Shown piece after piece: positions 38,844-41,229 of a stretch of DNA of 64,000 nucleotides; within the stretch, counting starts at the first letter, position 1; each line of letters opens with the position of its first letter. A program made the translations under genes and the position numbers. The DNA is from Bombella pluederhausensis (GTDB taxonomy: Bacteria; Pseudomonadota; Alphaproteobacteria; Acetobacterales; Acetobacteraceae), in assembly GCF_026385525.1 (NCBI RefSeq), contig NZ_JANIDY010000001.1, forward strand, positions 62,001 to 126,000, in the 5' to 3' direction. The notes under the pieces were generated by a model. The model ran no database searches. It saw only the letters and a list, made by a program, of their open reading frames with translations, and was not told the origin of the DNA.

Positions 38844-39983
38844 TCAGATATAATGTTCGTCCAGTGGCGGGAAGCCGTTGAAGCCGGTGGAACAGTAAGT
38901 GGAAACGTAAGCTCCGGTGGCCAGAATGTTGATCCTGTCCCCAGCCTTCAGTTCTTCCGGCAGGGTGATGAGGTTCTTCTCATAGAGCACATCCATGCTG
39001 TCGCAGCTTGGTCCTGCCAGAATGCAGGGTGATGTGCCTGTTGTGGTGTCATCATGGGGAGTCTGAAAGGCGTAGCGGATGGATTCACCTTCTGTTTCCG
39101 CAAGGCCGCCAAAACGCCCGATATCCAGATAAATCCAGCGGGGGTCTGTCTCGCTACCGCCCCGTTTGCTGGCCAGCACGACCTCGGTATGTACGACTCC
39201 GGCACTGCCGACCATGTAACGGCCCGGCTCCAGCAGGATGCGGGGGGCACCATCGGGGAAATGGGCCTTCATGGCCTTTGAGATGGACTGCCCGAACTGG
39301 TCGATGCTGGGGATGGGGCTGTTATAATAGGTCGGGAATCCACCGCCCATATTAATGAACTCCAGCGTAATGCCCTGTTTCTGGAGTCGGTGATAGACAT
39401 CGGCAGCCTGAGCGATGGCATCACCATAGGCTTCTGTATTGGTCTGCTGGCTGCCGACATGGAAGGAAAGACCAACCGGCTTCAGGCCCAGCTCACGGGC
39501 TTTCTGCAGCAGGGTGAAGGCGCTCTCCGGTGTGGTGCCGAACTTGCGGGAGAGGGGCCATTGTGCGCCGGTATTGACGACACCAAGGCGGCAGAAGACC
39601 TCACAGCCGGGGGCATGTTCTGCCAGTTTTTCCAGCTCCTCAATGCAGTCGAAGGCATAGAGTGTCAGGCCCTTCTGGTGGGCGTAGGCAATGGACCGCA
39701 CGTTTTTGACGGTATGGCCGAAGGACATTTTCTGCGCCGGGATGCCTGCCTTCATGCAGATATCAATCTCACCGGGGGAGGCAATATCAAAGAACGAGCC
39801 AAGAGCGTGCAGTTCTTTGAGGATGGCCGGTGCCGGATTGGCCTTCACGGCATAATGGATTCGGGATGAGGGAAGGGCACCATGCAGGGCGTGGTACTGC
39901 GTGCGTACGCAGGCGAGGTCCACGACAAGGCAGGGGGTAGCCGGTTTCTGTTCGGCGAGGAACTGGGCGATTTTTGGGGTCAT
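38844..39983 (-). CDS. PLP-dependent ornithine/lysine decarboxylase (fold III)
   Basis: From the ATG at 39983 the product is 379 aa (MTPKIAQFLAEQKPATPCLV). PLP forms an imine with Lys47 in 'YAVKANPAP'. 'SFHVGSQQTN' (His175 stacks on the ring), 'INMGGGFPTYY', 'LLEPGRYMVGSAGVV' and 'GPSCDSMDVL' (catalytic Cys327) are intact. The eukaryotic-type fold and length mark an ornithine or bifunctional lysine/ornithine decarboxylase for putrescine or cadaverine synthesis. The frame continues upstream to 40142, but this stretch overlaps a structured leader and the family normally begins near this ATG. Confidence 0.9.
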   Translation of the reverse strand: MTPKIAQFLAEQKPATPCLVVDLACVRTQYHALHGALPSSRIHYAVKANPAPAILKELHALGSFFDIASPGEIDICMKAGIPAQKMSFGHTVKNVRSIAYAHQKGLTLYAFDCIEELEKLAEHAPGCEVFCRLGVVNTGAQWPLSRKFGTTPESAFTLLQKARELGLKPVGLSFHVGSQQTNTEAYGDAIAQAADVYHRLQKQGITLEFINMGGGFPTYYNSPIPSIDQFGQSISKAMKAHFPDGAPRILLEPGRYMVGSAGVVHTEVVLASKRGGSETDPRWIYLDIGRFGGLAETEGESIRYAFQTPHDDTTTGTSPCILAGPSCDSMDVLYEKNLITLPEELKAGDRINILATGAYVSTYCSTGFNGFPPLDEHYI

Positions 39984-40177
39984 GAGACTCACGTTCCCTG
40001 AAAGTCTTCCCTGTCCTGTTTGCAGGGAAGATGTTGCGAAACGGTCGAACGGACCGGCGAAGTTCCGCCTGCCCCTGAGGGGGACGTACGGAAGCCAGAA
40101 CGCTTGACGTCGTTGCGTAACCGCATGAAGGGCCAGTGGCACGTGCGTTGCTGCGTGAAGTGCGTGAAAGAACCCAT
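39984..40177 (-). promoter_or_regulatory. Structured leader with upstream ORF and alternative hairpins before the decarboxylase
   Basis: A 62-codon upstream ORF (ATG at 40177 with CAGGG before it, stop at 39989) ends 5 nt before the decarboxylase ATG. Arg is frequent (MGSFTHFTQQRTCHWPFMRL, then RNDVKRSGFR). Within the same RNA, CTTCCCTG (40030-40023) can pair either with CAGGGAAG (40013-40006), making a stable hairpin, or with CAGGGAA (40000-39994), which is the likely ribosome site. Two more hairpins precede (CGGTC/GACCG at 40056-40042 and CCCC/GGGG near 40082-40072). This is the layout of a switch that hides or exposes the start. Alphaproteobacterial speF leaders and gammaproteobacterial speFL leader peptides are the obvious comparisons. 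I see both features by inspection only. Confidence 0.45.
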
Positions 40178-40473
40178 ATTGCCCTGAAATGCAAGGAAAA
40201 TCTGAAGGCCGTCTCTGGGGCGCAGTAGAGTGATTACCGAAAGACGGCTGGTTTGTACGGTATTTCTCTGACTGATGACTGCGTGGTGCCTATCATGGGG
40301 TAGAGCGTGATTTTTGCGCTCACAAAATGTCTGGCGGTGTCAAGGTAATATGCCGTGGCCTAGCTATGAGGCTATGAGCGGCCCTGCCTGTTTTCATCCC
40401 TAAAAATATTTTGGTAACAGATAAATGATTCGCAAAGATTGGGTTAATCTGTTGTTCGGGAGTTTGATGGCAT
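40178..40473. other. Divergent intergenic region
   Basis: This 296-nt A+T-richer stretch separates the decarboxylase leader (minus) from the hydroxylase gene (plus). It should contain both promoters. A short GAGCG/CGCTC hairpin lies near 40304-40321. No gene, tRNA or repeat is visible. Confidence 0.4.
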
Positions 40474-41229
40474 ATGAGCGCGGGTTGTAAGGAAAAAAAG
40501 AAACGGCCCCTTTTGGTACGGGTAGGAAAGGCGCTACGTCCTTGGTTTAATGACCTGATTGCCAAGGGGTCTTTGGTTCCCAATACGTCTCTGCTGGATA
40601 ACAGGCTGTTTCCATGGGTTGCCGCATTGGAGAAAGCCGCTCCTCTCATACAGAAAGAGTTTCAGGCCATTATGGCAGAGCGTAATGCTGTGCCGCCTCT
40701 GCGGGAGCTTTCGCCTGATCATGAACGGATTGCGCCGGATAATCGGTGGAAGTCCTTCTTCTTGTATGGCTATGGCATTCGTGTACCGGAAAATTGCGCC
40801 AAAGCTCCTATAACGGCTCAGCTTGTGGCGGGTATTCCCGGCCTTTGTTCGGCGCTGTTCTCTGTTCTGGAGCCCGGTGGTGAGATTCCGCCTCATAATG
40901 GGGTTACCAAAGGGATGTTGAACGCACATCTGGGGTTGGGCGTTCCGAAAGATCGTGATAATTGCTGGATCAAAGTTGCAGACGACACGCTGCACTGGGA
41001 TGAGGGCAGGTTGTTCATTTTTGATGACACCTATCGTCATACCGTGCAGAACAATACTGATGAGGTGCGCGGCATTCTGTTCATTCAGTTTGAGCGCCCT
41101 ACCCGTGGTCTGGGACGGCTGATGCAGCGTATCTTCCTCGGCGGAGTGAAAAAATCTGCTTTCGTCAAGGATGCTCAGGGTAATATTGAACGCTGGAATC
41201 GGATTCAGGCCGAACTGGAGAAAGTATAA
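40474..41229 (+). CDS. Aspartyl/asparaginyl beta-hydroxylase family protein (LpxO-like)
   Basis: The 251-aa Fe(II)/2-oxoglutarate dioxygenase-family protein has 'SVLEPGGEIPPHNGVTKGML', 'NAHLGLGVP', 'HWDEGRLFIFDDTYRHTVQN' and 'EVRGILFIQFERP'. The iron ligands His in 'PPHNG' and His in 'TYRHTV', and the 2-oxoglutarate Arg, are visible. This group includes LpxO, which hydroxylates lipid A acyl chains at the inner membrane. A basic start KEKKKRP, and a hydrophobic C-terminal segment, would suit membrane contact. GGGAG stands 11 nt before the ATG. Confidence 0.85.
   Translation: MSAGCKEKKKRPLLVRVGKALRPWFNDLIAKGSLVPNTSLLDNRLFPWVAALEKAAPLIQKEFQAIMAERNAVPPLRELSPDHERIAPDNRWKSFFLYGYGIRVPENCAKAPITAQLVAGIPGLCSALFSVLEPGGEIPPHNGVTKGMLNAHLGLGVPKDRDNCWIKVADDTLHWDEGRLFIFDDTYRHTVQNNTDEVRGILFIQFERPTRGLGRLMQRIFLGGVKKSAFVKDAQGNIERWNRIQAELEKV

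Follow-up and report, generated by a model that had tools for sequence, protein, structure and literature searches.

What controls the ornithine decarboxylase-type (ODC) gene of Bombella pluederhausensis, and does the DNA ahead of its start codon take part in that control? The gene lies on the minus strand of a 64,000-nucleotide (nt) stretch of contig NZ_JANIDY010000001.1 (positions 62,001 to 126,000; assembly GCF_026385525.1), here called the window, and all positions below are those of the window unless stated otherwise. An earlier sequence-only reading had taken the region upstream of the gene for the cis-acting leader of an ODC-type decarboxylase, and this identification holds. The region is a real, strongly conserved, folded regulatory leader RNA that acts in cis. 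It is the Acetobacteraceae form of a control leader that stands ahead of polyamine genes in many Alphaproteobacteria; the variant is new, while the kind of leader is known.

A conserved leader RNA upstream of ODC

The gene and the parts of its leader are as follows.

38844..39983, minus strand: ODC gene, 379 amino acids (aa), pyridoxal phosphate-dependent, Orn_Arg_deC
39983-39981, minus strand: ATG start codon of ODC
40032..40162, minus strand: whole conserved leader (~130 nt), matched by model R1 with 133.3 bits, E=9.6e-37
40130..40157, minus strand: block 1, CACGCAGCAACGCACGTGCCACTGGCCC, the core's 5' half, with hardly any variation among the 26 leaders aligned
40094..40122, minus strand: block 2, GGTTACGCAACGACGTCAAGCGTTCTGGC, the core's 3' half, which might also pair with block 3; near-invariant in the same alignment
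40092..40161, minus strand: core element matched by model R3 with 53.9 bits, E=1e-15
40059..40093, minus strand: variable apical hairpin separating blocks 2 and 3, differing in length and sequence among relatives
40033..40058, minus strand: block 3, GCCGGTCCGTTCGACCGTTTCGCAAC, complementary to block 2; near-invariant, in Acetobacteraceae-type leaders, its pairing predicted and statistically weak

The ODC protein contains the Pfam domains PF02784 (1.1e-53) and PF00278 (7.6e-11), and its best solved relatives are lysine/ornithine decarboxylases (E=2.8e-58). Three near-identical blocks were found upstream of ODC in 27 of 30 genomes. The alignment of 26 leaders (A1), which omits three congeners without a leader (L009-L011) and one leader missed by the search pattern (L028), contained 63 invariant columns, arranged in three near-invariant blocks. 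These blocks (40157-40130, 40122-40094 and 40058-40033) are the strongest signal of the region, and the sequence-only reading had missed them.

A covariance model built from the 26 aligned leaders (R1) places the window leader at contig positions 102032-102162, with a score to be read in the knowledge that the window sequence is itself among the training rows. R1 matched 132 of 150 genomes of the family Acetobacteraceae, once in 131 of them and with an additional weak place in one. This second place (L321 in genome G022, 22.6 bits) did not show the core and was regarded as noise. The 18 family genomes without an R1 match comprised 10 with no ODC at E<=1e-60 and 8 with ODC. The distance from core to coding sequence (CDS) was 139-247 nt in 80 Acetobacteraceae-type leaders.

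The core recurs across the Alphaproteobacteria

Parts of two blocks, CGCACGTGCC of block 1 and GCAACGACG of block 2, are common to other Alphaproteobacteria, where the core, CGCACGUGCC...GCAACGACG inside an outer stem, recurs upstream of ODC. Both core motifs were present with 0-1 mismatch in 27 of 67 ODC upstream regions from elsewhere in the class, a set in which one region is just 51 nt long. A pattern scan blind to genomic context over 84,980 species genomes returned at least 118 stretches, and in 106 of the 118 matches listed an ODC gene followed 136-430 nt downstream on the same strand. The other 12 matches listed consisted of two that end within an ODC-like match (L165, L245), one with a partial, weaker match (L217), one that precedes a different gene (L163) and eight with no match in the remaining stretch. 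From the two collections used, 169 leaders were drawn, and the same species is possibly present twice.

Among the matches listed, 80 titles named alphaproteobacterial or unspecific Proteobacteria assemblies, bar one labelled Nitrosovibrio (L188, CALQHT020000382.1); Gluconobacter and Komagataeibacter are two of the genera in which the scan found the core. The Nitrosovibrio bin has an Acetobacteraceae-type leader and ODC, and because both read like Acetobacteraceae it is probably mislabelled or mixed. A looser pattern run on a phage collection matched two viral contigs, both taken as chance: L268 lies inside a 414-aa open reading frame (ORF) on the same strand, and L267 was judged by reading its sequence.

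Relation to the ar45 and speF RNAs

Rfam gave no match in the full 64-kb window at the gathering threshold. A search with the speF covariance model RF00518, which the sequence-only reading had proposed as a check, found nothing at the leader at E<=10, and neither RF02347 (ar45) nor any other relevant family matched there at that level. Across the whole 2.0-Mb genome (14 contigs), RF00518 had a single 10.6-bit place on another contig (E=2.57), which we put down to noise, since at such an E-value 13 of 14 control genomes give a match as well. Fifteen Acetobacteraceae loci searched at E<=1 yielded neither RF00518 nor RF02347 and nothing else of relevance. The same threshold gave nothing relevant in 16 of 17 leaders from outside the family, and the seventeenth was an ar45/speF locus.

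RF00518 and RF02347 each matched the same six of 190 genomes of the class. In all six ar45 was directly upstream of speF, and the side-by-side arrangement is shown for four genomes. A screen in S. meliloti reports smrC45 and speF as the same locus (PMC2573895, from the part of the paper available). The printed ar45 consensus has CGCACGUGCCU-UGG and GCAACGACG in common with blocks 1 and 2. As a cross-test we used R3, a model built from alignment A3 (52 sequences), from which 14 Acetobacteraceae-like and 6 ar45-type rows had been taken out by eye. R3 scored 53.9 bits on the window leader and 24.5-33.3 bits on the ar45 loci, of which it recovered six of six; it did not match the three leaderless congeners. 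Because R3 was built without both groups and finds both, the window leader belongs to the same group as the ar45/speF leader described in Corbino 2005, a leader that the Rfam models represent only in part. This cross-test, together with the position of ar45 next to speF, bears out the suggestion that speF-type leaders of Alphaproteobacteria are the right precedent. Searched against whole genomes with stricter filters, R3 matched 35 of 190 class genomes; it matched 17 of 398 phylum genomes, all 17 from the same class, the share of the 398 that lies outside the class not being stated.

Fold of the core

The core folds into an outer stem, an invariant inner helix (CGCACGUGC/GCAACGACG) and the pairing UGGCC/GGUUA. 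In the outer stem, the real combinations of the two sides paired better than shuffled combinations (0 of 2000 shuffles; 33 nonredundant leaders), and this was still so with Acetobacteraceae left out (0 of 2000; 25 leaders). Alignment A2, which holds 72 of the 169 leaders after removal of repeats and of cores longer than 110 nt, showed changes on both sides in all five outer pairs. Its covariation score and its count of changed cells exceeded 500 of 500 shuffles, and its count of changed pairs exceeded 495 of 500. In A3 the covariation score (0.082 vs 0.051) was above 500 of 500 shuffles, and no slid structure rose above 0.042; four pairs had changed, a number equalled in 50 of 500 shuffles. 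Compensatory changes thus occur in the outer stem across the class. Within Acetobacteraceae there is too little variation for a covariation test.

Block 3 and the output side of the leader

The leaders differ in what follows the core. A run of TTTT within 24 nt downstream of the core was present in 48 of 79 middle-group leaders and 9 of 9 ar45-type leaders, and in 0 of 80 Acetobacteraceae-type leaders. Of 70 non-Acetobacteraceae leaders, 68 had a Shine-Dalgarno sequence with an ATG (SD+ATG) 50-90 nt downstream of the core, where shuffles would give 5.3; none of 75 Acetobacteraceae-type and none of 9 ar45-type leaders had one. Among 72 nonredundant middle-group leaders, the ATG opened a separate small ORF in 52 and was in frame with the gene in 18; it was missing in two, both Acetobacteraceae-like. 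Because a U-tract and a ribosome site with ATG at a fixed distance follow the core, most of these other leaders seem to work by attenuation or translational control. The Acetobacteraceae form has neither the U-tract nor the downstream small ORF and has its own third block.

Leaders with the ATG in frame with ODC include L190, L202, L215, L216, L220, L253 and L263, among others (L190 and L215 are titled Parvibaculum), and in these ODC would therefore carry an Arg-rich N-terminal extension of ~40-60 residues. Many of the small-ORF products of the middle group have similar ends (PSSIG, KTSI, SSM etc.), which points either to conservation of the peptide's C-terminus or to some feature of the RNA at that place.

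A mechanism can be proposed for the Acetobacteraceae form. The region would be the 5' leader of the ODC mRNA, transcribed from block 1. The ar45-like core would form first, from blocks 1 and 2 (state A), and block 3 could then capture block 2 (state B) and free block 1. Which state prevails would depend on a signal linked to polyamine status, and the amount of ODC would change with it. Predicted stability was greater for state B than for state A in 25 of 26 and in 45 of 47 leaders. Block 2 was also tried for a downstream partner acting as an antiterminator in other leaders, and no general pattern was found (z below -2 in 4 of 78).

Core copies at other genes

We examined 18 places matched by R3 away from ODC matches, plus the weak R1 place. 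Eleven of the 18 precede a decarboxylase paralogue 30-35% identical to the window ODC (L304-L308, L310, L314-L318). Of the rest, one precedes a homospermidine-synthase-like gene with ODC behind it, one precedes ODC itself and one a class-I glutamine amidotransferase, one has no gene assignment, and three are interrupted by a contig end. In L304 the gene behind the paralogue has a saccharopine-dehydrogenase fold by Pfam; ORFs with a similar start, recognised by eye, stand behind the paralogue in L305-L307 and L318; and L314 and L316 have deoxyhypusine-synthase-family and arginase-family genes there. In several of the eleven, the gene after the paralogue is thus homospermidine-synthase-like or of the deoxyhypusine-synthase family. 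The different gene preceded by the core in L163 (Magnetospirillum molischianum) matches homospermidine synthase structures (1.9e-177). Apart from the amidotransferase and the unassigned one, the genes with extra core copies fit polyamine synthesis. The amidotransferase ORF (L313) begins at the leader's own ATG.

Promoter and neighbouring gene

40189..40194, minus strand: TTGCAT, the -35-like hexamer of the likely promoter, as read from the sequence

The -10 element behind TTGCAT is weak in B. pluederhausensis (TCTTTC, 17-nt spacer). Relatives have TTGC-type hexamers upstream of block 1 at a spacing similar to that in the window, and transcription would start at block 1 of the leader.

The divergent neighbour of ODC (40474-41229, plus strand) belongs to the Asp/Arg hydroxylase family. 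Its nearest NCBIfam model is the ornithine-lipid hydroxylase OlsC, at 191.8 bits against a cut-off of 450, and the gene is a possible second user of ornithine chemistry beside ODC.

Proposed function and alternative explanations

The leader is extremely conserved, stands directly ahead of ODC, has its core in common with ar45 loci and has extra copies at polyamine genes. Its likely role is cis-control of ODC tied to polyamine status. We give a probability of about 0.62 to the full reading, namely that the leader is the Acetobacteraceae form of a class-wide leader of ODC and polyamine genes, that its 5' core corresponds to ar45, and that a signal tied to polyamine status sets ODC output through it.

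Several observations weigh against this reading. The leader is gone from three of ten congeners (L009-L011), which still have ODC with a TTGCAT-like hexamer near the gene, a natural deletion experiment, and the core was not found upstream of ODC in the eight R1-negative family genomes that have the gene. It was absent at 0-1 mismatch from 40 of the 67 ODC upstream regions from elsewhere in the class. The stricter whole-genome search with R3 missed four of the six ar45 genomes and found two. With regard to the fold, structures slid along A2 equalled the unslid one in the number of pairs with both sides changed (up to seven) and at +3 came close to it in score (0.074), RNAalifold predicted only the seven invariant inner pairs of A2 and not the outer stem, and the duplex of blocks 1 and 2 taken alone was unexceptional (406 and 72 of 1000 shuffles). 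With regard to the switch, covariation for state B was unconvincing (39 of 500 shuffles were as high), the duplex of blocks 2 and 3 was beaten by 10 and 42 of 1000 shuffles, and a shorter block 2 set against the whole downstream region paired no better than shuffles (z below -2 in 0 of 75, mean +0.7). Predicted accessibility of the ribosome site was 0.24 in one state vs 0.25 in the other, no difference, in 47 leaders. Because pairing is modestly or not better than in shuffles and accessibility is unchanged, re-pairing between blocks 2 and 3 is at most a plausible switch.

The sequence-only reading had put forward a different mechanism, built on two features close to the start codon and on an Arg-rich ORF of 62 codons.

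40006..40030, minus strand: hairpin directly upstream of the ribosome site, CTTCCCTG/CAGGGAAG; it folds
39994..40000, minus strand: CAGGGAA, the probable ribosome site and second partner of CTTCCCTG in B. pluederhausensis; pairing not family-conserved

On that proposal, the ORF would control translation jointly with a hairpin whose 5' arm pairs either with its 3' arm or with the ribosome site. All the pieces are present in B. pluederhausensis: CTTCCCTG at 40030-40023, CAGGGAAG at 40013-40006 and CAGGGAAC at 40000-39993, with the ORF at 40177-39989 and its stop 5 nt ahead of the ODC ATG, all on the minus strand. The complementarity of the hairpin's 5' arm to the ribosome-site region was better than chance in the window (p=0.015) and in one congener (0.005), with 0.07-0.105 in four more; the predicted overlap is accordingly real in this species and at best restricted to the genus. 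Across 80 Acetobacteraceae-type leaders, however, it reached p<=0.05 in four, the level of chance, and most relatives have a hairpin of different sequence at the equivalent of 40006..40030. The ATG of the ORF occurs in 0 of 8 other close leaders, in several of which indels alter the frame upstream of block 2, and the ORF probably starts upstream of the transcription start, because its ATG lies between TTGCAT (40194-40189) and block 1. Control by this ORF and hairpin is thus very improbable. The view that the conserved blocks encode a leader peptide and not a folded RNA is, if anything, even harder to credit. In 8 of 8 congeneric leaders block 2 can be translated as LRNDVKRSG, and one third-position change (CGC to CGT, in L020 and L022) is silent in this frame; yet all codon positions are conserved, the frame breaks inside block 1 (L023, L026, L029) and between the blocks, and the 75 Acetobacteraceae-type leaders have no SD+ATG after the core.

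Two other possibilities concern what the RNA does. The 5' part might be a separate trans-acting small RNA, as proposed for rhizobial alpha-r45, that merely uses the promoter region of ODC. According to the available part of one paper (PMC7717549), Bartonella makes alpha-r45 separately from the speF leader, and in S. meliloti the RNA reportedly co-precipitates with Hfq; the U-tract after the core in middle-group and ar45-type leaders would suit such an RNA. The core nevertheless precedes ODC in 106 of the 118 matches listed, and because no TTTT follows it in any of 80 Acetobacteraceae-type leaders, a separate RNA would have no terminator there; we consider this explanation distinctly unlikely. 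A regulatory-protein binding site or a translation sensor, in place of a ligand-binding RNA, is a possibility that we doubt and still take seriously. Its blocks are short, invariant and of a single sequence, and binding of six compounds to the A. tumefaciens speF RNA, an extended speF element, was not found by in-line probing, according to the portion available of Corbino 2005 (PMC1273637). No candidate protein was found, none having been sought; homospermidine is not among the compounds named for these binding tests in that portion of the paper, and the core also precedes homospermidine synthase. The same probing speaks against, for the A. tumefaciens RNA, the direct sensing of ornithine, lysine or putrescine that the sequence-only reading had in mind, while the link to polyamines that it suggested is strengthened by what the core-bearing genes encode. 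Its mechanism is thus replaced, and its guess at the family was largely right.

The reading we prefer, an Acetobacteraceae form of the class-wide polyamine leader, can be taken further. Since 2005 the speF leader has remained an orphan, and ar45 has counted as a small RNA in its own right; both would now stand in one leader family. Beyond ODC, this family would have a second group of targets: decarboxylase paralogues, homospermidine synthase, and genes of the deoxyhypusine-synthase and arginase families. Homospermidine is a candidate signal. Tentatively, and with less than even belief on our part, ar45, speF and the window leader might be local forms of a single class-wide polyamine-control RNA, in which the invariant CGCACGUGCC/GCAACGACG core is the sensor of a polyamine, for example homospermidine, ar45 is the attenuated product of this leader, and Acetobacteraceae have rebuilt the output side. 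If so, this family would have lost the terminator and the upstream ORF and gained a re-pairing block. The compact Acetobacteraceae form, without terminator or upstream ORF and with natural deletions in congeners, offers a minimal test object.

Comparison with known leaders

Searches of an open-licence library turned up no description of the Acetobacteraceae form or of the link to homospermidine synthase, which is not proof of absence, and in the parts available of PMC2965389 and PMC2864571 no mention of ornithine or polyamine was found. A review (PMC7266159), as far as available, credits Greenlee 2018 with finding further conserved portions of speF, and the updated consensus of that work may already contain part of the link between ar45, speF and the window leader.

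In the available part of its description, the speF element (RF00518; PMC1273637) resembles the window leader in its position upstream of a COG0019-type ODC in Alphaproteobacteria and in a conservation that begins near the putative transcription start and continues in blocks towards the start codon. The Acetobacteraceae leader differs from speF in being shorter, in having its own block 3 and in not being matched by RF00518. With ar45/smrC45 (RF02347) it has in common the CGCACGUGCC and GCAACGACG core inside an outer stem; that stem is GCCC/GGGC and followed by a U-tract in ar45, whereas it is ACGC/GCGU without a U-tract in Acetobacteraceae.

The odc1 motif, another alphaproteobacterial ODC leader, has a small upstream ORF and is defined by two UUG starts with two nt between them and by a peptide of 11 aa, and it includes a P1 hairpin with pseudoknot, according to the part of its description available (PMC8632094). 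With its small upstream ORF and a ribosome site within a hairpin, it resembles our middle group (same source). The window gene, by contrast, starts with ATG and has no upstream ORF after the core, which sets it apart from odc1 as described. A UUG-N2-UUG pair near the start was seen in 0 of 43 core-negative upstream regions.

The enterobacterial speF leader with SpeFL/orf34 reportedly relies on an upstream peptide, with arginine or ornithine involved, and its ODC is presumably of a type that differs in fold from the window gene. The Acetobacteraceae leader, unlike SpeFL/orf34, has no conserved upstream ORF; the two are alike in being ODC leaders with alternative RNA conformations, predicted ones in the Acetobacteraceae form.
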